Part shown: positions 4,207-28,652 of the stretch, in pieces
How positions within the stretch are numbered: position 1 is the stretch's first letter
Layout: each line of letters opens with the position of its first letter
Source: Burkholderiaceae bacterium
GTDB lineage: Bacteria > Pseudomonadota > Gammaproteobacteria > Burkholderiales > Burkholderiaceae_E
Assembly: GCA_021463505.1 (NCBI GenBank)
Contig: JAJTYR010000029.1
Location: 1 to 41,258, forward strand
Direction: 5' to 3'
Length of the DNA stretch: 41,258 nucleotides
Made by a program: the position numbers and the translations under genes
Notes under the pieces: model-generated
The model's database searches: none
Told to the model about the DNA's origin: nothing
The model's input: only the letters and a program-made list of their open reading frames with translations

Positions 4207-4215
4207 CGGCCTGAT

Positions 4216-5469: not shown

Positions 5470-5506
5470 CGTGTCGGCTCCGGAATCGAAGACGCGTCGC
5501 AAGCAA

Positions 5507-5535: not shown

Positions 5536-5604
5536 TGGTTGGCCCAGCGGCTGCCAAACGAAGGGAGCAGGCGACGGTGATTCCCATCGCAAGCAGGACT
5601 TCCG

Positions 5605-7125
5605 ATGGCTGAGAATCTTCTCGCGGCGACGGGGGCGCAAGGGTATCGCCGCCTCGGCATGCGCGGCCAGACGCTGATCGCCGCGCATGCGCAACTCGCG
5701 CAGATCCTGCGCAACCGGCTCGGTCGAGAACACGCCGAGCTGTTCGCGCGCCCCAACCTCGATCCGACCACCGGCTCGGTCGAGTGGTTCACGTCCCGTG
5801 CCGGGACCCCGGCACTGGTCTCGACGCTCGATCCACCGCAGCGCGCAGCGCTGGAAGCGCTGACCGAGCAGTTGTTGCGCGAGGTCGGGCAACTTGCCGA
5901 CAAGCTCGGGCGCGAGGGCGACACCGCCGAGCTGGCGTCGCAGATGCTGCACGGCGCCCTGCAGCGCCCCCCGGGTGACTGGCTCTACGAGGTCGACGGC
6001 AAGCCGGTGCTGATCATGTGGGGCCACCTGGCCGAGAGCAGCGCGAACGTGCCGGTGGGCGCTGCCGATGCGGGGGCGGCATCGCCGACGGCAGCGTTCA
6101 CGGCTGCGTCGGTCGGCGCGCCGGCGGCAGCGTCGGCGACATCGGGTGCCGGTGCTGTGGCTGCCACGCTGCCAGGCGCGCAGGCCGGATCGCAACCGTC
6201 GCGCCGCCGCTGGTGGCTGTGGCTGCTGCTGGCGCTGCTGGCGCTGCTGGCGCTGCTGTTGCTGGTGTTGCTGCTGTATCTGCGCCAGTGCATGGTGCCG
6301 GTCGATCCGTCGATGATCGGTACCGCGCCGATCGCCGCACCGCCGACGACACCGGCGATCGACGATGCACTGGCACGTCAGCGGGCATTGCTCGAGGAGT
6401 TCTCGCGACTTCGCCAGGCGCGCCTCGACGGTCAGCGGGCACTCGAGTGCGTGCGCGTGCAACCCGACGCGCCGGCGCTGGTGCCGGGATCCACGGGCGG
6501 CGTCGCGGTGGCCGTTCCCGAAACGGGTGGCGCCGGCATCGGCGGCTCTGGCCCGGTGCCGCCTCGCGCCGACCCGGCGGCGCCTCGCCCCGACCCAGCG
6601 GCGCCTCGCACCGGCCCGGATACGACTGGAGCGCCGGCGGGCACCGCCGAATCCGGCCGTGTGCTGCCGCCGGTTGCGCTGGGTCCCGATGGCCCGGTCG
6701 ATCCGGGTCGGCTGCCCGCGCTGCCGCCGCCCGACACCGGCAAGCCGCTGACGATTCCGCCCGATGCGCCGCCTGATGGCAAGCCGTCGTTCCTGCAGGG
6801 CAACTGGTCGGCCGGCCCGGGTCTGACCAGCACGAAGAATAAGCCGATCGACCTGTCGCTGGTGATGGGCGACGACGGCAAGGGCCAGGTGGTGATCCGC
6901 CGCAAGGAAGATGGCTCGACCTGTGTCGGGCCGGTCGACGCGCAGATGCGGCAGGGCCGGCTGGCGGTCACCGGCAGCGGCGCGGTGAAGTGCGATCGCG
7001 GCGAGCCGTTCGAGATGCCGCGCTTCGAATGCGCGCCCGATGCGCGGGGACGCACCCAGTGCAACGGCATCAACCGCGATGGGTCGACCTACGAAATGGA
7101 CATCTACCAGGGGCGTCGCTCGTGA
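5605..7125 (+). CDS. srfA: SrfA-family membrane protein, copy 1
   Basis: This 506-residue protein is the first gene of the srf run and is assigned to SrfA by its organisation and its position before srfB and srfC. Residues 1-140 are a soluble, probably cytoplasmic domain, then comes an Ala-rich linker and one very hydrophobic helix at about 201-229. The rest is predicted periplasmic: a long Pro/Ala/Gly linker with a 21-bp in-frame repeat, then a C-terminal domain from about 392 (FLQGNWSAGP) with four cysteines ending in TQCNGINRDGS. The following gene is a clear paralogue. An AGGA precedes ATG 5605 by 9 bases. Its biochemical role is not known; SrfA/B/C were named in Salmonella as SsrB-regulated factors. 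Confidence 0.75.
   Translation: MAENLLAATGAQGYRRLGMRGQTLIAAHAQLAQILRNRLGREHAELFARPNLDPTTGSVEWFTSRAGTPALVSTLDPPQRAALEALTEQLLREVGQLADKLGREGDTAELASQMLHGALQRPPGDWLYEVDGKPVLIMWGHLAESSANVPVGAADAGAASPTAAFTAASVGAPAAASATSGAGAVAATLPGAQAGSQPSRRRWWLWLLLALLALLALLLLVLLLYLRQCMVPVDPSMIGTAPIAAPPTTPAIDDALARQRALLEEFSRLRQARLDGQRALECVRVQPDAPALVPGSTGGVAVAVPETGGAGIGGSGPVPPRADPAAPRPDPAAPRTGPDTTGAPAGTAESGRVLPPVALGPDGPVDPGRLPALPPPDTGKPLTIPPDAPPDGKPSFLQGNWSAGPGLTSTKNKPIDLSLVMGDDGKGQVVIRRKEDGSTCVGPVDAQMRQGRLAVTGSGAVKCDRGEPFEMPRFECAPDARGRTQCNGINRDGSTYEMDIYQGRRS
6562..6624 (+). repeat. 21-bp tandem repeat in the srfA copy 1 linker
   Basis: Two near-identical 21-bp units (6562-6582 and 6583-6603) and a decayed third encode repeats of PR-x-DPAA in the periplasmic Pro-rich linker. 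The unit length keeps the reading frame, so changes in copy number would alter only linker length. Confidence 0.7.
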
Positions 7126-8411
7126 GCACGCCGGGCCTGGTCGGGCCGCTGCTGGCCGAGGGGTCGGTCGATCGCTACCGGCCGCTGGGCGCCTTCGGCA
7201 AGCCTGCCTACCAGAGCCATGTGCAACTGCGCGCGGCGCTGCTCGCGCGACTGGGCAAACCGTTCGCCGACTATTTCGCGCGGCCGACCTTCGATGTCGA
7301 AAAGCGCAGTCTGCGCTGGAACGCCGAGGTGCCCGGCGACAGCCAGCGCTGGGAGGTGCTGAGCAACGAGCGTCGCACGGGGCTGGAACCGGAGTTGCGC
7401 AGGATTCGCGAGGGTCTGCGCGGTTACGTCGCCGAACTGCGCGCCAGCGCCGGCGGTCAGCACGGCGGCGGCCAGGCGCTGGCCAGCCTGCTCGAACAGG
7501 CGATGACGATTCCCGACGACAGTCATCTGCACGTGATCGGCAATCAGCCAGTGCTGAGCTTCTGGGGATTCGAGCGCCAGCCGGTGCCGGCAGCAGCCTC
7601 GCATCCGCCGGCTGCGGCGCTCGCCGCAGCCGGCCCGGTCGTTGCGACGGCACGCGCACCCGCGACCATTGCCAGTGCTCCGGCCAGCGACGACGCCGCA
7701 AGCCGCCGGCGGTTCGCCTGGGGATGGTGGCCGTGGCTGCTGCCTCTCCTGCTGCTGCTACTGTGGCTCGTCTGGTGGTTGCGCTGCAGCGCGCCGCTGG
7801 CCGGCTGGTTCGCCGCGGACGGCTTTCCGGCCCGCTGGCTGCCGGCGCTGAAGGACTGCCCGGCGGTCGTGGCCGTCGAACCGCCGAAGGTCGAGCCGGT
7901 CGAGAAGACGGCGCCGGTGAAGGTGGACGCGCCGACGGAGCCGGAGCCGCCGAAGACCGAGCCGCCGAAGACCGAAGCACCGCAGCGGCCGATCGATGCC
8001 GGGACCGGTCGGATGGCGATCCCGGAACGCGCGGCACAGAGCCGCGACCTGTCGTTCCTCGAGGGGCGCTGGACGTTCGGCCCGCGGCTCGCCATTGGCC
8101 AGCCCGATGGCCGGAAAACGGGCGAGATGGACAATGCGCTGCAGTTCGATGCGCACGGACGCGGCCGGATGGAATCGCGCCGCGTGGGCGGCGGCAGCTG
8201 TACGGCGCCGGCGCGTGCACGCTTCGACGGCCAGGTGCTGCGCGTCGACACCGAACGCTGCACCGGCAATCGCCACGAACTGGTGCCGCAGAGCATGGAA
8301 TGCCGCCGCGGTTCGGACGGTCGCACGCATTGCGTGGCGATCAACCGGGATCCGTCGTTTCGCGGCCGGCCCGGTGAACGCTACGAGACCTGGCTTGCCG
8401 AACCCCGCTGA
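7122..8411 (+). CDS. srfA: SrfA-family membrane protein, copy 2 (paralogue)
   Basis: This 429-residue paralogue follows the first srfA with a GTGA start/stop overlap, which fixes GTG 7122 as the start. It has the same plan: a soluble N-terminal domain (ARLGKPFADYFARPTFD aligns with RLGREHAELFARPNLD in copy 1), one membrane helix at about 198-222 rich in Trp and Leu, a Pro/Glu/Lys linker of TonB-like composition, and a C-terminal domain beginning FLEGRWTFGP. Four cysteines align with those of copy 1 and the end motif is HCVAINRDPS. The duplication is old, as similarity is patchy outside these motifs. Two different SrfA subunits suggest a hetero-oligomer or different periplasmic partners, which is inference. 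Confidence 0.75.
   Translation: MSTPGLVGPLLAEGSVDRYRPLGAFGKPAYQSHVQLRAALLARLGKPFADYFARPTFDVEKRSLRWNAEVPGDSQRWEVLSNERRTGLEPELRRIREGLRGYVAELRASAGGQHGGGQALASLLEQAMTIPDDSHLHVIGNQPVLSFWGFERQPVPAAASHPPAAALAAAGPVVATARAPATIASAPASDDAASRRRFAWGWWPWLLPLLLLLLWLVWWLRCSAPLAGWFAADGFPARWLPALKDCPAVVAVEPPKVEPVEKTAPVKVDAPTEPEPPKTEPPKTEAPQRPIDAGTGRMAIPERAAQSRDLSFLEGRWTFGPRLAIGQPDGRKTGEMDNALQFDAHGRGRMESRRVGGGSCTAPARARFDGQVLRVDTERCTGNRHELVPQSMECRRGSDGRTHCVAINRDPSFRGRPGERYETWLAEPR
7944..7973 (+). repeat. 15-bp tandem repeat in the srfA copy 2 linker
   Basis: Two exact copies of a 15-bp unit encode EPPKT twice in the periplasmic Pro/Glu/Lys linker. The repeat keeps the reading frame. Confidence 0.7.
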
Positions 8412-8444
8412 ACCCCACGACCGCGCGACCCCACGACAGCCGCC

Positions 8445-11400
8445 ATGCCCCTGAATCAGTTGATGCGCTACCCCGACATCGTGCCGATGATTCCCGGCAC
8501 CGGTGTGCAGTTCCTCGACTTCGGTTTCGACATCGGCAAGGACACGCCAGTGCCGCGCGAGTGGGGCGTGCACGACCCGAAGGCGCAGTTCGACAACGAC
8601 GCGATTCCGCAGTTCCTGCGGCGCGGCGACGAGGCGTCGCGCCGCCCCGAATCGTACGTGCTGGAGATCCGCGACCTGGTGGAGATGTTCGACCAGGTGT
8701 GGATGCCGATCCCTCTGTTCCGCCGCGAACTCTCGGGCGGCTTCTTCCGTGGTCCGGTGAACTGGGCGCGCATCTGGTGGCACCGGCTGGCGCAGCCGGA
8801 CATCGACGGCAACGCCTACCGGCTGGTGTTGGCGCTCGACACCACGCTGATCGAGTTCGTCGAAACCGATGCCTACCTGGCGCCTTCACCGGCCGACGCG
8901 CGCAATGGGCGGCCGTTCGCGCTGCCCGGCCACGACGAGCCGATCGACTGGTTCTATCGCGACGGCTGGGTCAAGGACTGGTGTCTGGAGGTGTTCAAGG
9001 AGATGCACGAACGCAGCGAACGCAGTCGGCGCGGCCACTACGCGTTCCGGCCGTTCAGCCCCGACGAGCTGCACGACCGGATGCAGGGTTCGAACGAACA
9101 CGTGGCCCGCTACAAGGCGCTGGTCGACCTGCTGCACAGCCTGAACGTGCTGCCGTCGTTCGTGTTCGTCGACCGGGTCACCGAGCCGCTGCCGGAGCCG
9201 GTCGACGTCGACCTGGTGCTGGACCTCGGCAACTCGCGCAGCTGCGGGCTGCTGATCGAATCGGAGCCGGATCAGCCGAGCGTCGACGTGACGCGTGCAT
9301 TCAAGCTGCAACTGCGCGACCTGACGCGGCCCGAGCAGGTCTACGACGATCCGTTTCCGAGCCGCTTCGAGTTCGCCCGTGCGTCGTTCGGCCGCGATCA
9401 CCTGTCCCTGCGCAGCGGTCGCGCCGACGCTTTCGGCTGGCCCACCGTGGTGCGCGTCGGCAACGAGGCTGCGCACCTGGCTGCGCGGCGCACCGGCAGC
9501 GAAGGCGCCTCGGGCCTGTCGAGCCCCAAGCGCTACCTGTGGGACGGCGACCAGCGGCGCGACTCGTGGCGCTTCAACAGTCCGAACGTCGTCGGCGAAC
9601 GCTCCGACATCGCCACCGGCGTGGCGTTCACGACGCTGGTCAACGATCTCGGCGAACCGATCCACCGGCTTTCACCGGCCGACGCGACTCCCGACCAGCT
9701 GTTTCCGTCGATCCGCGCGCTGTACGCCCGCCGGCACCTGACCGCGTTCGCGCTGTCGGAGGTGTTCGTGCAGGCGATCTCGATGATCAACTCGCCGATG
9801 CACCGGCTGCGCCGTGCCGCCAATGCGAATCTGCCGCGCCGCATGCGGCGCATCATCCTGACGATGCCCACGGCGATGCCGGTGGCCGAACGCAACATCC
9901 TGCGCACGCAGGCCGAAGCGGCCTGCGACCTGGCCTGCCTGGCGCTGGGCCTGGCGCGGGTCGACTACGACGACGCAGGCGCGCAGACGCTGGCGTTCTC
10001 GTCCGAGGCGCGGGTGTTGCGCGACGGGCTGTACCGAGGACCCGAGGTGATCCTGCGCTGGGACGAGGCCACCGCGACGCAGGCCGTGTACCTCTACACG
10101 CAGATCGCGCAGAACTACTCGGGCGACGCGCGTACGTTCTTCGACAACCTGCGCCATCCGGCCAACCGGCAGGATCCGGCGACGCGCGACACGTTGCGGC
10201 TGGGAACGATCGATCTCGGCGGCGGCACGACCGACCTGGTGATCACCTCGCTGTCGGTCGAAGGCCGTGGCGCCAATGTGACCTTGCTGCCCGAGCAGGT
10301 GTTCCGCGAAGGCTTCAGCCTGGCCGGGGACGATGCGCTGCTGCGCGTGGTGCGCGAGCACGTGATCGAGGTGATCCGCCAGTCGCTGCGCCAGTCGGGT
10401 CTGGGCGACGGGGCCGACTTCGTGCTGACGCAACTGCTGGGCGGCGATCGCGGCAACATGACAGCGATCCAGCAGGTGCGCCGGCAGCAGTTCGCCGCCC
10501 AGATCGCCGCGCCGATCGGCCTGGCGATGCTGCAGGAGTACGAGGTCTTCGATCCGCTGCGGCCGGCGCCGACCACCACGCGTCACTTCGACGAGTTCTT
10601 CGACGCCGACACCCGGCCGACCGACGTGCTGGTGCAGTACTTCAACGGCGAGATCGAAAAACTCGCGCGCCAGCCGTTCGACCTGCGCCAGTTGACGCTG
10701 ACGATCGATCCGGTGGACACCGACCGCACGGTGCGCAGCGTGTTCCTGGAGATGCTGCAGGCGCTGGCCGAGATGGTGAACCGCCACCGCTGCGACCTGC
10801 TGATCCTGTCGGGGCGCACCTCGCGGCTGCCGGCGGTGCGTGCCATCCTGCTCGAATCGTGTCCGCTGCCGCCGCACCGCATCGTGTCGCTGCACCAGTT
10901 CCGGGTCGGCCAGTGGTATCCGTTTCGCGACTTCCGCGGCACCGTCGGCGACCCGAAGACCACCGCGGCGGTCGGTGCGCTGATCTGCCTGCTGGGTGAT
11001 GGCCGGCTGCACAATTTCAACTTCCGTTCCGACCGGCTCGAACCGAAATCGACGGCCCGCTACTTCGGCAAGCTCGACATGAACAGCCGGCTGCTGAAGG
11101 CCGACGAGTTCTTCGACGATCTCGACCTCGACGACCCGGACTATCCGCTGAAGGACCGGCCGTTCGAGTTCCGCGGGCCGATGGCACTGGGCTTTCGCCA
11201 GCTGCCGGTCGACTGGTGGCCGGCGTCGCGGCTCTACAGCATCGACTACGCGACGCCGGACGCCGCACGCGAACTGAACTCGCGCACGCCGCTGTCGGTG
11301 GCGCTGCGGTTGCAGCGCTCGCCGGTGCGCAACGCGCCGCCCGAAGGCTTCGCGATCGATCGCATCGAAGATCGCGACGGCCGCCGCGTGCCGAACGACC

Positions 11401-11477
11401 GGCTGCGCCTGCGCCTGCAGACCGTCGGCCAGCAGCAGGGCTACTGGCTCGACACCGGCGTGCTGTTCGAACGATGA
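8445..11477 (+). CDS. srfB: SrfB-family protein with an ASKHA (actin/Hsp70) ATPase core
   Basis: This 1010-residue protein matches SrfB in size and order. It has the three marks of an actin/Hsp70/sugar-kinase fold: a phosphate-1 loop DLGNSRS (about 259-265) after hydrophobic VDLVL, a phosphate-2 loop DLGGGTTD (590-597) after GTI, and an adenosine-type motif LSGRTSRLPAVR (about 786). About 250 residues precede the ATPase core and a 150-residue tail follows. There is no signal peptide or membrane helix, so it is cytoplasmic, possibly docking on the SrfA N-domains. It starts 33 bp after srfA copy 2 and ends 16 bp before srfC. ATP use is inferred from the motifs; no enzymatic activity can be asserted. 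Confidence 0.85.
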   Translation: MPLNQLMRYPDIVPMIPGTGVQFLDFGFDIGKDTPVPREWGVHDPKAQFDNDAIPQFLRRGDEASRRPESYVLEIRDLVEMFDQVWMPIPLFRRELSGGFFRGPVNWARIWWHRLAQPDIDGNAYRLVLALDTTLIEFVETDAYLAPSPADARNGRPFALPGHDEPIDWFYRDGWVKDWCLEVFKEMHERSERSRRGHYAFRPFSPDELHDRMQGSNEHVARYKALVDLLHSLNVLPSFVFVDRVTEPLPEPVDVDLVLDLGNSRSCGLLIESEPDQPSVDVTRAFKLQLRDLTRPEQVYDDPFPSRFEFARASFGRDHLSLRSGRADAFGWPTVVRVGNEAAHLAARRTGSEGASGLSSPKRYLWDGDQRRDSWRFNSPNVVGERSDIATGVAFTTLVNDLGEPIHRLSPADATPDQLFPSIRALYARRHLTAFALSEVFVQAISMINSPMHRLRRAANANLPRRMRRIILTMPTAMPVAERNILRTQAEAACDLACLALGLARVDYDDAGAQTLAFSSEARVLRDGLYRGPEVILRWDEATATQAVYLYTQIAQNYSGDARTFFDNLRHPANRQDPATRDTLRLGTIDLGGGTTDLVITSLSVEGRGANVTLLPEQVFREGFSLAGDDALLRVVREHVIEVIRQSLRQSGLGDGADFVLTQLLGGDRGNMTAIQQVRRQQFAAQIAAPIGLAMLQEYEVFDPLRPAPTTTRHFDEFFDADTRPTDVLVQYFNGEIEKLARQPFDLRQLTLTIDPVDTDRTVRSVFLEMLQALAEMVNRHRCDLLILSGRTSRLPAVRAILLESCPLPPHRIVSLHQFRVGQWYPFRDFRGTVGDPKTTAAVGALICLLGDGRLHNFNFRSDRLEPKSTARYFGKLDMNSRLLKADEFFDDLDLDDPDYPLKDRPFEFRGPMALGFRQLPVDWWPASRLYSIDYATPDAARELNSRTPLSVALRLQRSPVRNAPPEGFAIDRIEDRDGRRVPNDRLRLRLQTVGQQQGYWLDTGVLFER

Positions 11478-11493
11478 CCACAGGTGGACGGCA

Positions 11494-14334
11494 ATGACCG
11501 ATTCAGCGACGACTGATCCGCGGCAACTGCAACTGCGCGCCTGCGCGTCGGGGCTGGCCGCCGGCAGCGCCGGCGCACGCGGCTGGGTGGTCGAGGTGGC
11601 GCAGAACGCGAGAACGATCGCCGCCGAGGAGCAGTCGCTGATCGAATCGACGCGACGCGCCGAGAATCTGGCGCGCAAGCTGGCGGCCTCGGCATCGCGA
11701 CGCAATTGCGTCGGCGTGTTCGGTCCGAGCCAGGCCGGCAAGTCGTACCTGGTCTCGGTGCTCGCGCGCACGCCGGGCCGGACGCTGATGGCCGATTTCG
11801 CCGGTGAACTGAAGAACTTCATCTCCGAGATCAATCCGGCGGGCGATCGCGAGTCGACCGGTCTGGTGACCCGCTTCACCGTCGAGCCCGGCACGCGCGA
11901 CACCGCTCATCCGGTGGAGTTGCGGTTGCTGGGCGAAACCGACCTCGTGAAGATTCTCGGCAACAGCTTCTATTCCGACTTCGACCCGAACCTGCGCCGG
12001 GTGATGCCGCCAGAGGAGGACGTGATCCGCGCGGCGATCGCCGCGCTCGAGCCGCAGGCGCTGCCGGCGTCGGCGCCGCACCTGGACGAGATCGTGATGT
12101 TCGATGTCGGCGAGTACTTCCGCGCCTACTTCCCGACCGGTGTCGAGCGCTTCCAGCGTGCCGGCTACTGGGACGCGCTGGCGCGTTTCGGGCACCGACT
12201 GCCGCTGGCGGCGCGCGCGAAGCTGTACGGCCTGCTGTGGGGCGATCTCGAGGACTTCACGCGGATGTTCCTGCTGCTGGCCGGCGCCGCGGAGTCGCTC
12301 GGATTCGCGCCGCAGGCGCGCGCGGCGATCGGCGCGCTGGTACCGCGCGAGGCCAGCATCATCGACGTGGAGACGCTGAGCCGGCTCGGCAAGCCCGGGG
12401 ACGACACTGACCGCATCGCCGTCGTGCCGGTGCCCGACGGAGTGGCGCCGGCCGCGGCCGCAGGCGCCTCGGGTGCTGCGGCGCGCGAGGTGCAGGTGCC
12501 GCGGGCGGTGCTCACCGCGCTGATCGCCGAGGTGAAGGTGGTGATGACCGACCGGCCGTGGCGCTTCTTCGAGCACACCGATCTGCTCGACTTCCCCGGC
12601 GCCCGCTCGCGCGAGAAGCAGGTCGACCTGCCGACCGACCGCGACGAACGCGAGGACCGCGTACGCACGATGCTGCTGCGGGGCAAGATCGCCTACCTGT
12701 TCCAGCGCTACACAGAAGAGCGCGAACTGACCAGCATGCTGCTGTGCATGCCGCCGTCGAACCAGGAGGTCAAGGACCTGGCGGCGATGGTGCGTGGCTG
12801 GGTCGACCAGACCCACGGTGCCACGCCGGGGCAGCGCGCGCGAATCCAGTGCGCGCTGTTCCTGGTGCTGACCAAGTTCGACATGGATTTCATCGAGAAG
12901 GAGGGCGACACCAGCGAATCGCGCAAGACGAAATTCGACCGCCGGCTCGATGCGTCGTTCCTGAAACTGTACGGGCGCGACGAGTGGACGCAGAACTGGG
13001 ATGGCAAGCCGTTTCGCAACAGCGTGTTCCTGCGCAATCCCGGGATGAAGCAGACGCACATCATGAAGTACGCCGAGATCCGCACGCTGCCGGACGGCAG
13101 CGAGCAGCGGATCGAGGAGGGGCCGGACCCGTCGGTGGCCGACAAGCTCGCGCAGTATCGGCAGGCGTTCGAGGAATCCGTGGTCTGCCGCAGGCACTTC
13201 GACGATCCATCCGGTGTCTGGCAGGCGGCATTCACGCCGAACGACGGCGGCGTTGCGTTCCTGGTCGCGCGGCTCGAGGCGGTGCTGGCGCCGGAGCTGA
13301 AGGCGCGCCAGATCGAAGGCCGCCTGAACGACCAGGCGCGCGCGCTCGGCGAGCGGCTGCGGCGCTTCTACCGGGCCGACGACGACCAGTCGCGCAAGGA
13401 GAAGGAGGACGCGCTGCTGGGCATTCGCCGGCGTCTGTTCAATGCGGTGCGTCCGCGCGGCTTCGTCAACTTCGTGCAGCTCGTCTCGCTGCTCACGGTT
13501 CCCGAGATCGACGTGCGCGAGGCGTTCCTGAACGTCGCGGCGTTGAAGCTGGAAGCACTGCCGGCAGCGGCGACTGCCGATGAAGGCGACGCCCAGGGTG
13601 AAGACCCGTGGGGCGACCCCTGGGCCGATGCCGGTGATGCCTCCGGGGCCAGCGCCGGGGGGAGCGGGATGAGCGGGATGAGCGGGATGAACGGCGTCGG
13701 CGACGCCCGCGGCGTCGATGACCCCAGCGGTGTCGGCCGCTCGCCGATGCCGGCGCAGCGCGACCGGTCCGACCTGTTCGCGACGCAGGTCACCAACCTG
13801 TGGACCGAGCGTGTCCGCGGGCTGGCGTTCGAGCACGACACGCTGGCCGCGCTGGGTCTCGACGCACGGCTGGTGAGTGACCTGGTCGACGAACTGGTGG
13901 TGGGCGCGCATCGCGCACAGTTGACCGACCGCGTCGCGGCGGCGACGCGCCGCCAGGTGCAGTCGGCCAACGTGCGCTGGGACGAGGTCGCTGATCGCGC
14001 GGCGACGATCGCGGCCAACCTGATCAACGACCACGTGGCGTTCCTCGGTTTCGCCGAGTTGGCACCCGACCAGCGCCCGGGCTGTCCGGAGCCGCCGAAG
14101 GCACGCCAGCGTGCGGTCTTCCAGTGGCTCGATGCGGTCGGCGGTCCGGCCGGCCTGGGCGAGCGCAGGCGGCCGATGGAGAACGACTACTTCATCGACT
14201 GGGGCGTGGCACTCAGACAGGCGGGGATCGACAACGCCAGCTTCTCGGGCGGGCGCGAGATCACCGACGACCAGAACCGCCGGCTCGGTCGGATCCTGAC
14301 CGATATCGACGCGGCCGCGAACTTCGGGGTCTGA
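11494..14334 (+). CDS. srfC: SrfC-family P-loop GTPase-like protein
   Basis: This 946-residue protein carries GTPase-like motifs: G1/Walker A GPSQAGKS (77-84), G3-like DFPG (366-369) in the segment HTDLLDFPGARS, and G4 TKFD (460-463) after a hydrophobic strand. The wide G1-G3 spacing (about 280 residues) shows a large insertion, mostly helical. The C-terminal half is predicted helical, interrupted by a Gly/Ser/Met low-complexity stretch with a 9-bp repeat. There is no signal peptide. An AGGTGG precedes ATG 11494. The layout is reminiscent of dynamin-like or virulence-associated large GTPases, but I can only support P-loop GTPase-like. It sits between srfB and the Sel1 membrane protein and probably works with SrfB at the membrane. 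Confidence 0.82.
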   Translation: MTDSATTDPRQLQLRACASGLAAGSAGARGWVVEVAQNARTIAAEEQSLIESTRRAENLARKLAASASRRNCVGVFGPSQAGKSYLVSVLARTPGRTLMADFAGELKNFISEINPAGDRESTGLVTRFTVEPGTRDTAHPVELRLLGETDLVKILGNSFYSDFDPNLRRVMPPEEDVIRAAIAALEPQALPASAPHLDEIVMFDVGEYFRAYFPTGVERFQRAGYWDALARFGHRLPLAARAKLYGLLWGDLEDFTRMFLLLAGAAESLGFAPQARAAIGALVPREASIIDVETLSRLGKPGDDTDRIAVVPVPDGVAPAAAAGASGAAAREVQVPRAVLTALIAEVKVVMTDRPWRFFEHTDLLDFPGARSREKQVDLPTDRDEREDRVRTMLLRGKIAYLFQRYTEERELTSMLLCMPPSNQEVKDLAAMVRGWVDQTHGATPGQRARIQCALFLVLTKFDMDFIEKEGDTSESRKTKFDRRLDASFLKLYGRDEWTQNWDGKPFRNSVFLRNPGMKQTHIMKYAEIRTLPDGSEQRIEEGPDPSVADKLAQYRQAFEESVVCRRHFDDPSGVWQAAFTPNDGGVAFLVARLEAVLAPELKARQIEGRLNDQARALGERLRRFYRADDDQSRKEKEDALLGIRRRLFNAVRPRGFVNFVQLVSLLTVPEIDVREAFLNVAALKLEALPAAATADEGDAQGEDPWGDPWADAGDASGASAGGSGMSGMSGMNGVGDARGVDDPSGVGRSPMPAQRDRSDLFATQVTNLWTERVRGLAFEHDTLAALGLDARLVSDLVDELVVGAHRAQLTDRVAAATRRQVQSANVRWDEVADRAATIAANLINDHVAFLGFAELAPDQRPGCPEPPKARQRAVFQWLDAVGGPAGLGERRRPMENDYFIDWGVALRQAGIDNASFSGGREITDDQNRRLGRILTDIDAAANFGV
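13663..13689 (+). repeat. 9-bp tandem repeat inside srfC
   Basis: Three exact copies of AGCGGGATG in a row encode SGM repeats in a Gly/Ser/Met linker between two helical parts of SrfC. The units keep the reading frame. Confidence 0.8.
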
Positions 14335-14338
14335 CGCG

Positions 14339-19543: not shown

Positions 19544-19571
19544 CCGTCCTGGCGGCCAGAGAGGAGCCGAC

Positions 19572-22470: not shown

Positions 22471-22483
22471 GACGAGGAGATCC

Positions 22484-22507
22484 GGCGGCGCGCTCCGCCG
22501 CCTTGTT
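22484..22507 (+). terminator. Hairpin between the machinery and exported-protein genes
   Basis: A perfect 7-bp stem GGCGGCG / CGCCGCC with a 5-base loop is followed by TTGTT. It sits in the 50-bp gap after the coiled-coil gene, one of the few real gaps in the 16-gene run. It could be a weak terminator, an attenuator or an mRNA-stabilising end that sets a different expression level for the downstream exported proteins. A fresh GGAGG ribosome site follows it. Confidence 0.4.
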
Positions 22508-22520
22508 CGGAGGACGCATC

Positions 22521-22925
22521 ATGATGACCAGGTCTTTCCGTTCGACGACCCAGGGCGGCCTGTGCGGCGTGCTGCTGCTGGCCAGCTTCGCCGCCACCGC
22601 GCAGCGCGCGCAGTCTGCCGAGGTGCCGCAGGAAGAGTCGTTCGCGGCACGGCAGGCGCCGGGGCAGATGTCCGACGCCGAGCGCAAGCTGCGCATGGCG
22701 CTGCTGCAACGGAGCATGGGCTTCGGTGGCATCTTCGGGCCGATGATCGCGCCGCTGAACCGGCCGGGCGCCGGTGGCGGGCCGCCGAGGCCTGCCCAGA
22801 AAAGCTGCGGCGCCTATTCCGACTACGCCGCCTGCCAGGCCTATCGCAACGGCGATCGCTGGGCTGCCGACCGGCTGCAGAACAAGCGTTCGACCGGCGC
22901 CGAGCGCGACTGGTACAACCGCTGA
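22521..22925 (+). CDS. Small exported protein, unknown function
   Basis: This 134-residue protein has a signal peptide ending near AQRAQSA. A charged segment follows, then a Met/Gly/Pro-rich stretch (LLQRSMGFGGIFGPMIAPL) and a C-terminal portion with two cysteines (SCGAYSDYAACQAYRNGDRW). GGAGG lies 7 bases before ATG 22521, one of the best ribosome sites in this region. It is the first of five exported proteins that close the srf run and ends 5 bp before the lipase frame. I do not recognise the family; it could be a chaperone, inhibitor or structural partner of the next gene product. Confidence 0.65.
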   Translation: MMTRSFRSTTQGGLCGVLLLASFAATAQRAQSAEVPQEESFAARQAPGQMSDAERKLRMALLQRSMGFGGIFGPMIAPLNRPGAGGGPPRPAQKSCGAYSDYAACQAYRNGDRWAADRLQNKRSTGAERDWYNR

Positions 22926-22930
22926 CCGCG

Positions 22931-24553
22931 ATGGCGCGTCCGCGGACCGGCGGCCGTTGCGCGTCGGGCGCGACGGCCGCGATGATCGACAACCGGTACA
23001 GGCACGCGCTCCCGATCGCCGCGGTGGTGCTCGGGTTCGTGTTGCAGGTCTTTGCGCCGCCCGCGCGGGCGCAGAGTCCGCTGCCTCCCGGGCCGCTCGG
23101 CGGCACGTCGCGTGCCGGCGAGGTGAAGACCGCGCAGACCGGTGGCAACGGCGCCGGCGTCTACCTCGAACTCGGCGATCTGCGCTGCACGGCCGCGCGG
23201 CCGGCAATCGTCGGCGTGCGCACGCGACACGGGACGGTGCTCGATTTCATCCAGATCGGCTGCGCGAGCCTCGCCTGCGACGGCAAGTCGTGCCGCTGGG
23301 ACGACGTGTCGTGGGGCGCGTCGGCCGGCAATCCGTCGGGCGGACGCGCGCCCGAGGAGCAACTGTGCGACCGCGACGAGGTAGTCGGCGGCTACGATGC
23401 GACAGTCAGGCACCTGAACGTCGGCGTCGACTTCGATTACGCGGCGGCATTCCGGATCCGCTGCGCATCGGCCTATGCGCTCACCCACGGTTCGCCGCGC
23501 CCGCGCATCGACACCTATGCCTACAAGGCGAATTCGCGCAGCTGCAACGGCGTCGGCGCGAGCGCGGTGTCGTATGCGGTCGGCCGTTGGGGTCTCGGCG
23601 GCTCGCCGGTCGTGCAGGCGGTGCTGATGCTGTGCCCCGACAGGCCGGCGCGCGCAAGCAGCGACGTCGCTGCCTGCAGGCATCCGCCGGAGCTCGTGCG
23701 CGGCACGCGCGTGCAGTTGAACAGCGCACGCGACGTCTACAAACTGATCAGCTCGCTCTATCGGACCGGCCGGCCGATCGAGGTCGCGCGCGTGGCCAGT
23801 CTGCAGAACACCTGGATGGTGGCGCTGGCCGGCACTGAGTCGGGCGTGAAACAGGCCAACTCGGTGACGCTCGACCGCGCGCTCGATGACTTCCACAGCG
23901 ACTACCGGAGCCGCAATCCGGCGGGGTTGGTGAAGATCGGCATCGAGGAGATCCTCCAGCAGCCGAAGCTGCGCGAGTTTTTCATGACCACCGTAGAGCC
24001 CGACTTCCGATCGTCGCAAGGCAAGACGACGATGTTCCAGGTGCGGATCCTGCAGGCGCTGCGCACGCACGGCGTGCCGGCCGGTGCGCGGCTCATCATC
24101 GCGGGGCACAGCCTCGGCGGCATGGATGCGCAGAACCTCGTGCGCAACGCGCAGTTGCGCAACTACGGCTACCGGCCGATTAACGTGATGACGTTCGGTT
24201 CGCCGATCACCGTCGAGGACGATCCGGCGATCGGTTACTCGCGATTCGCGTCGCGCGCCGACCCGGTCCCGTACGCGGCGCTCAGGAGCCTGGTGTCCGA
24301 TCGCAGCCGCTGGACTTACGTGAGGAATCCGGGCGACGACCCGCGGCTGCCACTGATCGGCGACACCCGCGCGTGGCAGAACCTCGGCAATCTGCTCATC
24401 GGGACGGTGCAGGCTGCGCACCTGAACTACGATCAGTCGAACGACCTCGACGACTACGATCCGCGCACCGGCCGGCGCGGCGTCGACGAACCGCTGGTGC
24501 TCGACGGCGGGGACGCCCGGTGCTACGCGGCGGCGGACGACTACTACAAGTAG
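22931..24553 (+). CDS. Exported class 3 lipase with an N-terminal Cys-rich domain
   Basis: This 540-residue protein is a predicted secreted lipase or esterase. After a signal peptide (to about residue 48), residues about 62-238 form a Cys-rich domain with eight cysteines that recurs as a stand-alone protein at 27823-28647. An alpha/beta hydrolase domain follows, with the nucleophile elbow AGHSLGG (Ser394), preceded by an Arg/Ser/Gly-rich region; Asp in SRADPVPY and His in AAHLNYD are plausible triad partners. The class 3 lipase family includes phospholipases, but the substrate is unknown. ATG 22931 is 5 bp after the previous stop; ATG 22982 is an equally good alternative giving a tighter signal peptide (Ser377). 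Confidence 0.8.
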   Translation: MARPRTGGRCASGATAAMIDNRYRHALPIAAVVLGFVLQVFAPPARAQSPLPPGPLGGTSRAGEVKTAQTGGNGAGVYLELGDLRCTAARPAIVGVRTRHGTVLDFIQIGCASLACDGKSCRWDDVSWGASAGNPSGGRAPEEQLCDRDEVVGGYDATVRHLNVGVDFDYAAAFRIRCASAYALTHGSPRPRIDTYAYKANSRSCNGVGASAVSYAVGRWGLGGSPVVQAVLMLCPDRPARASSDVAACRHPPELVRGTRVQLNSARDVYKLISSLYRTGRPIEVARVASLQNTWMVALAGTESGVKQANSVTLDRALDDFHSDYRSRNPAGLVKIGIEEILQQPKLREFFMTTVEPDFRSSQGKTTMFQVRILQALRTHGVPAGARLIIAGHSLGGMDAQNLVRNAQLRNYGYRPINVMTFGSPITVEDDPAIGYSRFASRADPVPYAALRSLVSDRSRWTYVRNPGDDPRLPLIGDTRAWQNLGNLLIGTVQAAHLNYDQSNDLDDYDPRTGRRGVDEPLVLDGGDARCYAAADDYYK

Positions 24554-24561
24554 GGGGCACG

Positions 24562-26040
24562 ATGAAAATGGGCGTGCGAAATGGCCGGCAACGGGTGCTC
24601 GTGCCGGTCGTGTCGGTGGCATTGATTGCCCTGATGGCGGGTGACGGCGCGTTCGCGCAGGGTCGCGACGTCTTCGCGACGCAGGGCGAGCGCGGGGCGC
24701 GGTCCGGCGACGTCTTCAGCAGCAGCGGCAACCCGTACGGCGATGCGCATCCGTCGCGTCGCACCGGCAAGCAGGCGATCCAGGACGACAGCGTCTATTG
24801 CCAGCAGGATCCGCAGGGCAACGTGATCCCGAAGCCGTACGGTCGCACGCGGCGCAACATCCCCTGCGGCCCGGACTTCGGTCCACAGCCGCAGCAGCCG
24901 AAACAGACGCCGCCCACAGCGGCGCGCCGTTGCCCGTCGAAGACCGCCTCGGCCGACGCACCTGACCGGCCGACACCCGCCGTCGATGCGGCGATGGCCC
25001 GGGCGATCGGGCTGGTGGCGCGCCCCGACGACGTGCCGCGCATGCACCCGGTGCGGGGCGGCAGTGGATGGGAGATCGGGCTGTACGTGGCCGGGCGCAA
25101 CGTGCTGCTGCCGACCGAGGCGAATCTGCCGGCGCTGAACGACTTGCAGTACGAGATCTTCCTGGCGATGGCGTGCAACCCGAACCGGCGCTTCGAGTTC
25201 GCGAACCGGGAAGAGTTGCTGCAGAACATCCGCTTGCGCGAGGCGATCGTCGCAGTGATGGACGACGTCAGGCTCAACCGGCTTCGGCTCGGGTTCAGCG
25301 GGACGAAGTTCTGGATGCCCAGGGTTGGGTGGCGCGAGGCATACGACAATCCGGCCGGTGCCGTGAAGACGAAGAAGGGGCCGCTGACCTGGGAGTCGAA
25401 CGCCGGGCGCAGCGCTTCGTCGGCGATGCGCCTGTTCCTGCAACGACGCGGGCCGAACGAGAGACCGAACGACTTCGCGTTCCTGGTCGAGTGCCTGAGC
25501 GGCATGCAGATGGTCGTGCTGGGCGGCGTCTATCGGGCGCTCGGCGACGGCGAGTTCGACCGCTGGCACCCGGTCGAGCAGACGCCGCGTGGCGGCGCGG
25601 CGCTGTACGGCATCGGTGTTCCGATCATCGAGGACGGGCTGCCGGCGCTCGGTGAGTCATCGGTGAAGAAGCACCTCATGCCGATCCGTACCGAGGATCC
25701 GCGTCGCCGAAACGACAGGATCCTCGTTCCCGACATGGTTCCGGGCGACTATGTGTACCTGTCGAACGTGCCCGACTACGCCGAGCTGTTCAAGGACGGC
25801 GCGTGGGCCGGCGAGAACGCGATCTACATGGGCAAGCGCGAGTTCTACGGGCTCGGCATCGGTGCGAGCCGGATGACCGCGGAGGGACTGAAGGGCCAGA
25901 TGCTCGACCACTACAACCAACACCTGCCGGAGTGGCGCAAGTGGTTGCGGCCGGGGCGTCCCGAAGAGTTGCGCTTCACGCTGATCGCAGCGCCGGTGGT
26001 GTCGCGAACGCCAGGTAACGCGGGCAGCTACGTGCGGTGA
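24562..26040 (+). CDS. Exported Tgl-type transglutaminase-like enzyme
   Basis: This 492-residue exported protein has a signal peptide cleaved near FAQG, then a 54-residue module (50-103) almost identical to one in the next gene, then a Pro/Ala linker. Residues about 165-450 resemble, from memory, Bacillus spore transglutaminase Tgl. FAFLVECLSGMQMVVLGG aligns with its catalytic FYAFECATAIVIIYY. GDYVYLSNVPDY followed by WAGENAIYMG and FYGLGIG aligns with its GDCLYFKNPEF, WRGENVILLG and FAHGLGI. The catalytic Cys and its preceding Glu (Cys311, Glu310) and the second catalytic Glu (Glu418) are kept. It would cross-link proteins between Gln and Lys. Tgl is about 245 residues, so this one is longer at the N-terminus. 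It overlaps the next gene by 4 bases. Confidence 0.78.
   Translation: MKMGVRNGRQRVLVPVVSVALIALMAGDGAFAQGRDVFATQGERGARSGDVFSSSGNPYGDAHPSRRTGKQAIQDDSVYCQQDPQGNVIPKPYGRTRRNIPCGPDFGPQPQQPKQTPPTAARRCPSKTASADAPDRPTPAVDAAMARAIGLVARPDDVPRMHPVRGGSGWEIGLYVAGRNVLLPTEANLPALNDLQYEIFLAMACNPNRRFEFANREELLQNIRLREAIVAVMDDVRLNRLRLGFSGTKFWMPRVGWREAYDNPAGAVKTKKGPLTWESNAGRSASSAMRLFLQRRGPNERPNDFAFLVECLSGMQMVVLGGVYRALGDGEFDRWHPVEQTPRGGAALYGIGVPIIEDGLPALGESSVKKHLMPIRTEDPRRRNDRILVPDMVPGDYVYLSNVPDYAELFKDGAWAGENAIYMGKREFYGLGIGASRMTAEGLKGQMLDHYNQHLPEWRKWLRPGRPEELRFTLIAAPVVSRTPGNAGSYVR
24709..24870 (+). repeat. Copy A of a 162-bp shared module (54 codons)
   Basis: This in-frame segment of the transglutaminase-like gene is repeated at 26151-26312. 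By hand alignment without gaps, 147 of 162 bases and 52 of 54 amino acids match. Eleven codons differ only silently, so the protein sequence is under strong constraint. The module contains two cysteines and the motif YCQQDPQGN. Confidence 0.9.
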
Positions 26041-27833
26041 GCAAGGTGCCCGCACGCAGCGCGGTCGCGCTGATCGGCGCGACGCTGGCGCTGGCCGTCC
26101 ACGCGCAACCGGGCCACGTGTTCGCCACGCAGGGTCGCTCGCCGCCCGGCGACGTGTTCAGCAGCCAGGGCAATCCGTACGGCGGTGCGCATCCGTCACG
26201 CCGCACCGGCAAGCAGGCGATCCAGGACGACAGCGTCTACTGTCAGCAGGATCCGCAGGGCAACGTGATCCCGAAGCCGTACGGCCGCACCCGCCGCAAC
26301 ATTCCGTGCGGCCTTCCGGGCAGCCCGGGTGCCCCCCGGGCAGCGGTGCCGGCGCCTGCACCCGCGCCACCCCGTCCGGCCCCGGTCGCCCGGGTCGCAC
26401 AACCGGATTCCGAAGCCTGCGAATGCCCGCCGTCCGGCGAAGCCGCAGCCAGCGTCGCGACCGATCGTGCTGCACCCGAACCCGGGCGCGCCGGGCCGGT
26501 GCGCCGCATGGAGATCACCGACATGGCGTCGCGCGACGGCAAGGCGGGCCGGCGCACGGACTCGGGCCGCTGCGCCTGCAAGGTGGTGCCGGTATTCAAC
26601 TACTACTACTTCAACGGCATCAACACGCCGCTCGCGGGGCCACCTGGGGCCCGCGGCAACTGCCGCTGGGATCGAGCGATGATTGCCGCGAACCTGCTCG
26701 ACCTGCGCGGCGCCACCCGGATGCCGGCGCCGACGCAGAAGGGTGCCGGCTTCCGGACGCCGGTGCGAATCGCCGGCAGCCGCGACGTGTTCGACCTGGA
26801 ATCCTGCAACCCCTCGGGTACGCAGACGGGCGTCAGTCTGGCGAACTTCTGTGCGCCGATCCGCAGGCAGAAGCCATCCTTGACCGATCCGGGCCTGCTG
26901 TTCTGGTCCTTCTGGTGCGACGTGGCGATGCGCACCCCCGACGTGCTGGGCCACGGCATTCCCGGATTGCAGGGCGCAGGCAACTCGCCGGGCGACCTGA
27001 TCGAATCGTTTCGCCAGGCGCAGGATCCGCCTGGCGGGTCGCCGCTGGTCGGCATCGGCTATTCGGCGAACACCGACGAGGTGAGGAAGGTCGCCGCGGC
27101 GATGATCCGCGCGTTTCGCGACGAGCAGGCGCAGAAGGATGCGCGTCGCCGCACCCGGCAGTACTTCGTCGTGATCGCCCATTCGCAGGGCAATTTCTTC
27201 GCCGAGGGACTGGCCTACCGGATGAAGATGACGCTGGATGGCGGTGACGAGGGTCGGCAGATCTACCAGACGCGGCTGGCGGTGCTGTCGCTGGCATCGC
27301 CGAACGACTACCCGAAGCTCGACGAAGAGTTCCGGCGCAACCGGATGCGCCACCTGACGCGCCAGGACGACGTGATCCTCGCGCTGCGCGACCTCGCCGC
27401 CGACTTCGAGCGTGGGCTCGGGGTCGAGGCTCGCAAACCCTGGCCGTCCGACGCGCGTGGCGATCCTCCACCGCTGTGGGCCTGGCCGCCCGGTGACCTG
27501 CCGGCCTACCTGAAGGCGACCCGCGCGGGCACGCTGATGGGTCTCGGACCTCCGCCGAGCCCGCCGTGCAACCTGAAGAATCATGGCAATGTCGACGAGA
27601 AGGCGCGCTGCGACGGCGCGCTGTACGTGCCGCTGATCAACGCGCACCTGCTGGACAACTACCTGACCGATCCGACGCTGACGACGCCCGGTGTGCCGAT
27701 CAACCCGTTGGCCGCCCAACTGCTGTACCGTGACGCCCGGGCCCGGGCGGTGGCACCGACGACCGCACCGGTGCTGGGACTGGTGCGCAAGGCGCTGCGC
27801 GAACTCAAGCAGGGACTGATCGATGGGCAATGA
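26037..27833 (+). CDS. Exported alpha/beta hydrolase with the shared N-terminal module
   Basis: This 598-residue protein starts at GTG 26037 (GTGA overlap) with a short signal peptide ending near VHAQ. Residues 39-92 are the module shared with the transglutaminase-like protein, followed by a Pro/Ala-rich linker and a Cys-rich stretch. From about 185 there is a predicted alpha/beta hydrolase with VIAHSQGNFF, Ser383 as nucleophile in a GxSxG-like elbow where the first Gly is Ala. Asp in LASPNDYP and His in LINAHLLDNY are possible triad members. It is probably a lipase or esterase acting outside the cytoplasm, though the substrate cannot be told. It is distinct from the class 3 lipase two genes upstream. 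It overlaps the next gene by 11 bases. Confidence 0.78.
   Translation: MSKVPARSAVALIGATLALAVHAQPGHVFATQGRSPPGDVFSSQGNPYGGAHPSRRTGKQAIQDDSVYCQQDPQGNVIPKPYGRTRRNIPCGLPGSPGAPRAAVPAPAPAPPRPAPVARVAQPDSEACECPPSGEAAASVATDRAAPEPGRAGPVRRMEITDMASRDGKAGRRTDSGRCACKVVPVFNYYYFNGINTPLAGPPGARGNCRWDRAMIAANLLDLRGATRMPAPTQKGAGFRTPVRIAGSRDVFDLESCNPSGTQTGVSLANFCAPIRRQKPSLTDPGLLFWSFWCDVAMRTPDVLGHGIPGLQGAGNSPGDLIESFRQAQDPPGGSPLVGIGYSANTDEVRKVAAAMIRAFRDEQAQKDARRRTRQYFVVIAHSQGNFFAEGLAYRMKMTLDGGDEGRQIYQTRLAVLSLASPNDYPKLDEEFRRNRMRHLTRQDDVILALRDLAADFERGLGVEARKPWPSDARGDPPPLWAWPPGDLPAYLKATRAGTLMGLGPPPSPPCNLKNHGNVDEKARCDGALYVPLINAHLLDNYLTDPTLTTPGVPINPLAAQLLYRDARARAVAPTTAPVLGLVRKALRELKQGLIDGQ
26151..26312 (+). repeat. Copy B of a 162-bp shared module (54 codons)
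   Basis: Second copy of the module at 24709-24870, here in the alpha/beta hydrolase gene at codons 39-92. The only two amino-acid differences are Ser/Gln and Asp/Gly near the N-terminal edge of the module. Confidence 0.9.
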
Positions 27834-28647
27834 CGAGGCTCGCATTGCGACGATCTCCGCACCCGCGGCTGCGCGGCGCCCGATCGGGACGCCGGCTCGA
27901 TTCGCTGCCGTGTTGCCGCTGCTGGTGGCCGAAGCGATCGCGACGGCACTGCCGGCCGCGTTGCCGGCGCCATCCCTCGCCCAGCAGCGCAGCGGCGGGC
28001 AGTCGGTGAACCTGCCGCAGGCCTGGGAAGTCGAAACCGCGCAGGCCGGTGGCAAGGCGGCCGGAGACTTTCGCTTCGTCGGCGCGCTGCGTTGTCGCAA
28101 CGTCGGTGAAGCGATCGTCGGGGCCCGTCTGCTGCGCAGCGAGGTCGTCGATGCGATCCAGATCGGTTGTGCGCCGCTGGCGTGCGACGAGGCCGGCGAA
28201 TGCCGCTGGGAGCGGCTCGAACGCGGTGTCGGCGCCGGCAACGCCAATGCCGATGCCCGTTCGTCGATCGCCGTGTGCGCGCACGATCAGGTGGTGTCGG
28301 GCTTTCGCGCGCGCATCCGTGTCGTACCCCCAGGCGCGGTCGACTACGTCGAAGATCTCCAGCTCGAATGCGCGCGCGTGATCGGCGCGCCGCTCGGCTA
28401 TGGCGACAAGGGTCCGCAGGCGGCGCTACCGATCTCCGGCGAGCAACGTGCCTGGATGCCGTTTCCCGACGACAGCGGCAACGCGGGCGAACGCCCCTGG
28501 GCGCTCGAGCAGCGCTGCGACGGGCGTGCCGCGACGGCGATCTCGCTGGCCGTGGGCATCTATCGGCCCACCGGGCAGCCGGTGGTGCAGGCCCTGTCGA
28601 TGTTCTGTGCACGAGCGCCGGTGATTGCCGGCGCCGCAGCGCTCTGA
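27823..28647 (+). CDS. Exported Cys-rich protein matching the lipase N-terminal domain
   Basis: This 274-residue protein ends the srf run. It has a long n-region and a hydrophobic signal segment ending near SLAQQ. Residues about 68-272 align with residues 62-238 of the lipase encoded at 22931: AIQIGCAPLACDEAGECRW matches FIQIGCASLACDGKSCRW, and CAHDQVVSGFRARIR matches CDRDEVVGGYDATVR. Eight cysteines are in register. The Gly-rich start and paired strand-loop-strand pattern suggest a beta-prism or jacalin-like lectin fold, which is inference. It may bind glycans or lipids and could be an adaptor or an immunity-like partner of the lipase. It overlaps the hydrolase gene by 11 bases. Confidence 0.75.
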   Translation: MGNDEARIATISAPAAARRPIGTPARFAAVLPLLVAEAIATALPAALPAPSLAQQRSGGQSVNLPQAWEVETAQAGGKAAGDFRFVGALRCRNVGEAIVGARLLRSEVVDAIQIGCAPLACDEAGECRWERLERGVGAGNANADARSSIAVCAHDQVVSGFRARIRVVPPGAVDYVEDLQLECARVIGAPLGYGDKGPQAALPISGEQRAWMPFPDDSGNAGERPWALEQRCDGRAATAISLAVGIYRPTGQPVVQALSMFCARAPVIAGAAAL

Positions 28648-28652
28648 AAACG

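Follow-up and report, generated by a model that had tools for sequence, protein, structure and literature searches.

What does a row of sixteen genes do that joins SrfA, SrfB and SrfC homologues to Tag-like genes and then to exported enzymes? The row lies at 5605-28647 of a 41,258-base stretch of DNA from a Burkholderiaceae bacterium, which we call the window. The window is one whole contig (JAJTYR010000029.1, here C43) of a 3.58 Mb assembly in 120 contigs (GCA_021463505.1), with a genome completeness of 97.7%. The row splits in two: a conserved core of genes 1-11 (5605-22470) and a local part, genes 12-16. We tentatively read the core as a machine that spans the cell envelope.

The sixteen genes are consecutive open reading frames (ORFs) on the plus strand with coding-type codon usage. 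Eight of the 15 junctions are overlaps (six of 4 bases, one of 11 and one of 23, the last only if TagR starts at its first GTG) and the other seven are gaps of 4-62 bases. A first-pass annotation, made from the letters alone, had described sixteen same-strand genes most of which overlap by 1-11 bases. The same-strand row and its operon-like packing hold, but only 7 of the 15 junctions fit that overlap range, so the wording was slightly generous. The order of the core is SrfA, SrfA, SrfB, SrfC, a Sel1-type protein, a von Willebrand factor A (vWA) protein, TagT, TagS, TagR, a glycine-zipper lipoprotein and a second lipoprotein. Pfam and NCBIfam agree with the families first proposed: SrfA (twice), SrfB, SrfC, Sel1, vWA, ABC ATPase, FtsX-type permease and the formylglycine-generating enzyme (FGE) fold. 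Coordinates are collected in Table 1, where the core family profiles are ones built without the window and then run on its genes.

Genes 1-11 recur in distant genomes, so this block is not a chance assembly. A search with an alignment of the vWA protein through genomes chosen one per species gave 310 relatives, and the best 80 loci were examined. Family profiles find SrfA in 78 of these 80, SrfB in 77, SrfC in 78, the Sel1 slot in 79, TagT and TagS in 79 each, TagR in 75, the TagQ slot in 69 and the second lipoprotein in 72. Several of the misses are short contigs (L050, L052, L065, L096). With the window proteins themselves, tblastn finds TagT and TagS in 79 each, SrfC in 78, SrfB in 77, SrfA in 76, TagR in 75, TagQ in 57, Sel1 in 13 and the second lipoprotein in 2. 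There are 1 to 5 SrfA copies per locus, usually 2, and many other loci have an additional SrfA gene separate from the first, at the opposite end of the row. Three loci (L058, L062, L066) lack TagR and the later genes in the stretch read; there TagS is followed by what look by eye like sugar-nucleotide dehydrogenase genes. The core is present in many bacteria.

Genes 12-16 behave differently. None of the 80 loci has a tblastn match to them at E 1e-3, and there is no match on the plasmid of Hyphomicrobiales bacterium UR115, the closest plasmid relative. The exported enzymes must therefore be rejected as a conserved part of the system, and the proposal that they are linked to it in relatives fails. 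The hydrolase and the lipase have no match at E 1e-3 among 72,556 plasmids, and the hydrolase has none in 73 other genomes of the family. Other loci put nothing consistent in this place: 51 of 87 have no same-strand gene within 350 bases after the core, and the rest have mixed followers. Genes 12-16 are a local addition behind the core. They are probably co-expressed with it.

It is worth asking whether the link between the Srf and Tag genes also appears when one starts from SrfB. PF07520 (SrfB) scores above its cut-off in 21 of the 398 genomes of a phylum sample, ours among them. In samples of the window's own order and family it does so in 1 of 250 and 1 of 74 genomes. The 20 SrfB loci of the phylum sample other than our own were drawn evenly, regardless of Tag genes. 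SrfABC is followed by vWA-TagT-TagS-TagR in the same order in six of them, spread over four families (three of the six belong to one genus). Distances between SrfB or SrfC proteins correlate with those of other core proteins (r 0.56-0.82 over 20 thinned loci; 0 of 999 permutations). The first-pass annotation had named such a neighbourhood survey as its refutation test. The outcome favours linkage of Srf and Tag genes (SrfB at 77 of 80 vWA loci, Tag genes at 6 of 20 SrfB loci, correlated distances). Its single unit of SrfABC, Tag-like and exported genes thus keeps the first two parts and loses the third.

Sequence profiles from the PDB gave nothing useful for SrfC, vWA or SrfB, and predicted folds were used for that reason. 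The models give SrfC a dynamin-superfamily fold (BDLP/mitofusin/Fzo1) and SrfB an Hsp70 nucleotide-binding fold with phosphate motifs. Both assignments are new. The window SrfC has the GTPase motifs G1 (GPSQAGKS), G3 (DLLDFPG) and G4 (TKFD). The window, all six Tag-linked loci from the SrfB sample and 69 of 69 further Tag-linked proteins keep GxxxxGK[ST] at G1 and DxPG at G3; the SrfC of L042 is cut and masked and was excluded. At the G4 position T..D is common in the family. Hydropathy gives the window SrfC no transmembrane (TM)-like segment and we see no signal peptide by eye, so SrfC would act from the cytosol. SrfB likewise has no export signal by eye.

One locus provides another line of reasoning on SrfB. 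L053, from a Phaeospirillum metagenome-assembled genome (MAG), is the only long locus among the 80 without SrfB and SrfC. Divergent before its Sel1-slot and Tag genes is an ordinary Hsp70 (PF00012 E 1.1e-74; PDB DnaK 1.4e-61). Beside it (both in 5318-8712, minus strand) is a 626-residue protein (6832-8712), assigned to no family, with two hydrophobic stretches within a coiled-coil-like region. A true Hsp70 stands where SrfB is missing, and this independently supports SrfB as an Hsp70-type part, from a single case in a MAG.

The SrfB loci that lack Tag genes belong mostly to one family (f58), which we take to be Enterobacterales, although Salmonella itself is not among the loci read. In the Tag-less f58 loci the P-loop Ser/Thr of SrfC is lost in 8 of 12, and either this residue or DxPG is lost in 9 of 12. 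In all 12 the conserved Arg that follows DxGN[ST] in SrfB is replaced by His. Since the GTPase motifs are mostly damaged and the Arg is replaced, the f58 operon looks like a reduced form. We infer that the complete srf-Tag form is ancestral and that the f58 operon is derived from it.

The Tag half of the core lacks the kinase of the type VI pathway. The window vWA protein starts with a signal-peptide-like segment read from its sequence, is 661 aa long from its ATG and has no kinase match; the other 78 members of its family are 642-694 aa. A kinase motif pattern run over 102 loci matches one ORF, a fusion protein of L053 that is not a vWA protein. The models nearest to TagT are YbbA, DevA, LolD and FtsE, every one below its cut-off, and TagS has a weak similarity to LolC (E 0.005). 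The catalytic cysteines of formylglycine-generating enzymes lie in the C-terminal part of the fold; residues 321-356 of the window TagR contain no Cys. The TagQ model reaches 35 bits (E 7.4e-9) against a cut-off of 300, mostly on the glycine zipper. It matches 167 of 369 genomes in the same manner and exceeds its cut-off in 1, so we dropped TagQ as a specific marker. The TagR label is stronger. The srf-type TagR profile matches a TagR beside an over-cut-off TagQ gene in locus L216 at E 7.9e-86, and a reverse profile from the TagQ-slot family finds the L216 TagQ genes at 3e-16. None of 9 L216 products matches a type VI family, and the system to which that TagR belongs is therefore not proven.

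No sheath, tube, baseplate or ClpV gene had been seen in the first pass, and this is borne out: apart from the weak TagQ match, no type VI family occurs among the 22 window products scanned (left of 31643), and TssC/VipB (PF05943) has no match in the genome. Of 50 distinct genomes that carry the locus, 23, ours included, lack TssC (51 handles were chosen from 87 loci, and one genome was present twice). A type VI accessory module is rejected for this genome, which has no TssC. We also rejected a known phage-defence system: among 10 products scanned, PADLOC matched TagT to generic ATPase models and, weakly, the TagQ-slot lipoprotein to LeoBC (E 1.5e-4), and nothing else.

Our preferred account, which we hold as a serious possibility falling somewhat short of a probability, is that genes 1-11 form a trans-envelope machine in which the state of the outer envelope is sensed and the inner membrane is remodelled. 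From gene content, order, predicted folds, motifs, hydropathy, spread, and the lack of a vWA kinase and a sheath gene we infer sensing, signalling direction, sidedness, a partnership of SrfB with SrfC and an outcome for the cell as follows. Sensing would fall to the two outer lipoproteins, one of them in the TagQ position, together with TagR and the periplasmic vWA protein, as in TagQ/TagR/PpkA of Pseudomonas aeruginosa. The TagT-TagS ABC pair would be a mechanotransmission pump of the LolCDE/MacB/FtsEX kind and not an exporter. Without the PpkA kinase, the signal would cross the membrane through the bitopic SrfA and Sel1-type proteins. Their cytosolic domains would meet SrfB, an Hsp70-like ATPase, and SrfC, a dynamin-like GTPase. 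SrfB may load, unload or disassemble SrfC, and where the membrane is damaged SrfC may tether, seal or reshape it. Here five exported proteins would have been added behind this machine. The first-pass annotation had suggested an NTP-driven envelope complex that handles secreted enzymes. The NTP-driven part gains support because of the SrfB and SrfC folds, but the handling of enzymes is unsupported.

Several points weigh against this account. The best 80 of 310 vWA loci are biased toward similarity. Among the 20 SrfB loci, the stretch read shows no Tag genes in 13, of which 12 belong to f58, and 1 contig is too short. Only a survey that begins with the vWA protein makes the Srf-Tag link the rule. 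The correlated distances can also stem from shared descent. Tag-less L043, from another family, has intact SrfC motifs, which means that the presence of Tag genes and of an intact GTPase is not coupled everywhere. The fold of SrfC has its own difficulties: Foldseek TM-scores are low (best 0.21 by query length), E < 0.001 is reached for a single match, and the Lys of a dynamin-type G4 ([TN]KxD) is in the window but kept in just 2 of 69 relatives. A crude hydropathy measure finds one TM-like segment in 5 of 78 SrfC and 6 of 75 SrfB relatives. The TagQ assignment is weak. The sensing role is carried over by analogy from a pathway whose output is type VI firing. No true PpkA was available for comparison: the vWA profile run on seven TssC-positive genomes found Srf-linked vWA proteins only, plus one weaker match. 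L053 has a Ser/Thr kinase fused to an SrfA-type N-domain behind its core (16875-19931, plus strand), which means that a kinase output can return. Finally, one report describes Xenorhabdus SrfABC as a cytotoxin (PMC6950479) and another a Salmonella srfC mutant that swarms poorly (PMC4219756); membrane repair is named in neither source, as far as the available excerpts go.

The main rival is a machine for the release of vesicles or cargo. In this scenario SrfC, SrfB and the Tag ABC pump drive blebbing or the release of periplasmic proteins, a role that has been proposed for LeoABC, the five exported proteins are the cargo and a shared N-terminal stretch is the loading tag. The dynamin fold of SrfC is what one would expect, since LeoA is a bacterial dynamin that the excerpted source links to vesicle release (PMC4159319). 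The exported genes sit in the same close-packed row. Moreover, the transglutaminase and the hydrolase have a near-identical N-terminal stretch (blastp E 1e-38, close at the DNA level too), with two occurrences in the genome by pattern and protein search, and the N-terminal domain of the lipase is common to the last exported protein (36% over 202 aa, E 8e-28). Against this, none of the 80 related loci has the cargo genes, and neither does the closest plasmid relative. In 51 of 87 loci the core has no same-strand follower within 350 bases, and the window SrfC appears to have neither a TM-like segment nor a signal peptide. We consider this rival unlikely.

Lipoprotein or lipid trafficking is a slightly poorer fit, and we regard it as quite unlikely. 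TagT and TagS would be an extractor of the Lol/MacB type, the lipoproteins carriers, SrfB a chaperone and SrfC a membrane tether. The models closest to TagT and the presence of two lipoproteins in the core are consistent with this. Against it, the family scans named no MacA- or LolA-type product among the core genes, and the LolC similarity of TagS is weak.

A secreted tripartite toxin, SrfABC with export and control genes, draws on the available part of the Xenorhabdus report (PMC6950479), in which the recombinant SrfABC proteins form a complex and are harmful to cells of insects and mammals. We find it improbable that this applies to our locus. SrfB and SrfC show no export signal by eye, they have predicted Hsp70 and dynamin folds with nucleotide motifs, and they occur in many environmental bacteria. 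The weakest alternative, a kinase-less threonine-phosphorylation module that regulates a type VI system elsewhere in the genome, has the TagT/S/R-like genes adjoining vWA and the L216 TagR match in its favour, but it is very improbable given the missing TssC, vWA proteins without a kinase, and type VI machinery in only one Deltaproteobacterium with these genes according to the excerpted 2013 report (PMC3608642).

How do these results stand next to known systems? The earlier statement that no system of this composition has been described fails for the core. Neighbourhoods of srfABC, tagQRST and "ppkA" were reported in host-associated Deltaproteobacteria in 2013, mostly without type VI machinery in the part of the report available (PMC3608642), and the excerpt of a Xenorhabdus study mentions an srfABC-Tag neighbourhood too (PMC6950479). 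In the window SrfA, SrfB (PF07520) and SrfC (PF10139) are adjacent and in order, as in an SrfABC operon, and vWA, TagT, TagS, TagR and a lipoprotein stand close behind. The Deltaproteobacterial neighbourhood, as excerpted, has srfA, srfB, srfC, TagQ, TagR, TagS, TagT and a PpkA-named gene, with a Hap-like gene nearby that we count as a likeness (PMC3608642). It was read as type VI control with SrfC as a possible effector, and the excerpt has no dynamin or Hsp70 assignment and no lipase/transglutaminase block. What is new relative to that report is the SrfC and SrfB folds, the Hsp70 swap of L053, the 23 of 50 genomes without a sheath gene and the loss of SrfC motifs in the Tag-less family. Among the open-licence papers listed in our searches, mostly as titles and abstract openings, we saw none that reports SrfB or SrfC folds, counts the Sel1-slot gene as a member of the set or describes the exported block.

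The H1 TagQRST-PpkA set of P. aeruginosa resembles the core in its ABC ATPase, FtsX-type permease, FGE-fold TagR, lipoprotein and periplasmic vWA domain. In that pathway, according to the excerpt available (PMC3224232), PpkA carries an extracellular vWA domain as a sensor, and its C-terminal domain is what TagR acts on. Here, in contrast, the vWA protein has no kinase, the genome has no sheath gene and SrfA/B/C with a Sel1-type protein stand instead. The Salmonella-type srfABC operon of the flagellar regulon has SrfA, SrfB and SrfC orthologues in order, whereas 9 of the 12 Tag-less f58 loci have damaged SrfC motifs. The Salmonella srfC mutant swarms poorly and swims normally in the excerpted account (PMC4219756). 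Bacterial dynamins (BDLP, IniA, SynDLP, LeoABC) have the dynamin fold, and SrfC has their GxxxxGKS and DxPG, but SrfC stands beside a putative Hsp70-fold ATPase and an envelope-spanning sensor set. PorK/GldK of the type IX secretion system is an FGE-fold protein and the best NCBIfam match of TagR, with PDB matches as well, yet only the fold domain is common to the two.

A broader scenario is possible, and we hold it more loosely than the mechanism itself. The trans-envelope machine could be a stand-alone, horizontally spreading response of Gram-negative bacteria to envelope damage. In it the outer-membrane sensor familiar from type VI control would need no kinase and would act through a GTPase of the dynamin kind and an ATPase of the Hsp70 kind, which mend or reshape the membrane. 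Its type VI counterpart and the srfABC operon of enterobacteria would then be two partial derivatives, L053 a third wiring, and the exported enzymes an extra output here. SrfABC has for a long time carried the label of virulence factor with no mechanism attached, and the predicted folds, with an envelope sensor at many loci, make it a testable membrane machine. TagRST-type sensing would be separated from type VI secretion. That the enterobacterial operon has resisted interpretation may be due to its often damaged GTPase.

The horizontal spread can be seen on plasmids. The vWA protein matches 125 plasmid records, 114 of them Klebsiella, and SrfB matches 142. One record of the 114 gives the Klebsiella arrangement: on an IncFIB/IncHI1B plasmid (L220) the core genes lie in a row between IS26 and an IS66-type element, in the order TagQ-slot, second lipoprotein, two SrfA, SrfB, SrfC, Sel1-slot, vWA, the ABC pair and TagR, together with two small genes. 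One SrfA-family gene there is annotated as a tellurite resistance domain protein. The UR115 plasmid (CP131057.1) has core genes 1-11 in the window's exact order, at identities of 57% for SrfB, 51% for SrfC, 54% for vWA and 31.5% for the second lipoprotein.

In the window the srf-Tag block lies on an island. The alignments of four congeners, at 84-88%, start at 28674-28694 and that of a fifth at 28754, and SrfB is missing from all 17 congeners. The other side of the same site is in contig C66 of this genome, from base 6085-6115; the five congener stretches that were compared contain nothing matching C66:1-6084. Should C66 adjoin C43, as we presume, the insert would be at least about 34.7 kb. 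One observation speaks against so simple a picture. The congener DNA next to the site is split between C66 and, further out, C28, and the site is therefore not simply collinear.

Table 1. Genes and other features of the window, with the evidence for each
Feature	Coordinates	Strand	Evidence
Island part of contig	1..28674	.	right edge 28674-28694; left edge beyond contig
Divergent trypsin-like protease, one N-terminal hydrophobic segment	4216..5406	-	Trypsin_2 E 1.4e-20
SrfA1: N-domain, one TM-like segment (201-234), Pro-rich C-terminal part	5605..7125	+	NF040486 174.9 bits, cut-off 150
SrfA2, SrfA1 paralogue	7122..8411	+	NF040486 138.5 bits (below cut-off 150); family profile E 5e-53
SrfB: predicted Hsp70-fold ATPase, ~250-residue N-terminal extension	8445..11477	+	PF07520 1036 bits
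SrfC: predicted dynamin-superfamily GTPase	11494..14334	+	PF10139 827 bits
Sel1-type bitopic protein: N-domain, TM-like 216-240, C-terminal Sel1/TPR domain	14339..15541	+	Sel1; core family profile E 5.5e-30
Kinase-less vWA protein, exported (periplasmic)	15538..17523	+	PF00092 E 1.1e-7; family profile E 1.6e-231
TagT-like ABC ATPase	17520..18248	+	family profile E 3.3e-71
TagS-like FtsX-type permease	18245..19543	+	PF02687; family profile E 9.7e-101
TagR-like FGE-fold protein, exported	19521..21185	+	PF03781 E 1.3e-31; family profile E 2.1e-166
TagQ-position glycine-zipper lipoprotein	21248..21961	+	family profile E 8.7e-47; TagQ model 35 bits
Second small coiled-coil lipoprotein, last core gene	21958..22470	+	window family match E 1.6e-5, weak; lipoprotein read from sequence
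Small exported protein, accessory	22521..22925	+	no family match
Exported class-3-lipase-like protein, GHSLGG	22931..24553	+	Lipase_3 E 3.2e-4, just below Pfam cut-off
Exported transglutaminase-family protein	24562..26040	+	PF20085 E 3.4e-13
Exported probable alpha/beta hydrolase (AHSQGN, by eye)	26037..27833	+	no family or PDB match
Exported protein, mainly the lipase-shared domain	27823..28647	+	blastp

All five products of genes 12-16 start with signal-peptide-like segments, read from sequence. Aligned to PDB 7c9j, the transglutaminase keeps the Glu of WAGEN, and the His of FYGHGIG is replaced by Leu. Cys, Glu and His are the active-site residues of a Bacillus-type transglutaminase. With the His replaced, the protein counts only as a candidate enzyme.

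To the left of the core stands the trypsin-like protease, whose open frame extends to 5586. Homologues occur in 4 of 102 related loci. L051, L054, L070 and the UR115 plasmid have a relative, and on the plasmid the gene has the same divergent place and 51% identity. The protease is a probable partner of the core in this lineage. In L051 the protease is followed by a protein (17946-18932) that by eye starts with an SrfA-type N-domain and has a weak DUF2135 match under the cut-off.

Further left in the island are a lipoprotein-like TPR protein that has a secretin domain in its C-terminal part (434-2245, minus strand) and a HilA/CadC-type winged-helix protein with TPRs (2431-4206, plus strand), a 69% identical stretch of which occurs elsewhere in a congener (G723). 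The secretin, the HilA-like regulator and the right-hand genes were rejected as parts of the system, with no matches in 100 related loci; the sole exception is generic aldehyde dehydrogenases in 5 of them. On the right, about 3.7 kb with an aldehyde dehydrogenase gene (33953-37755) is absent from the congener stretches. It is flanked by an imperfect direct repeat of about 41 bases, the 3' end of a UvrD-type helicase gene, and this sequence pattern indicates a second, separate insertion.

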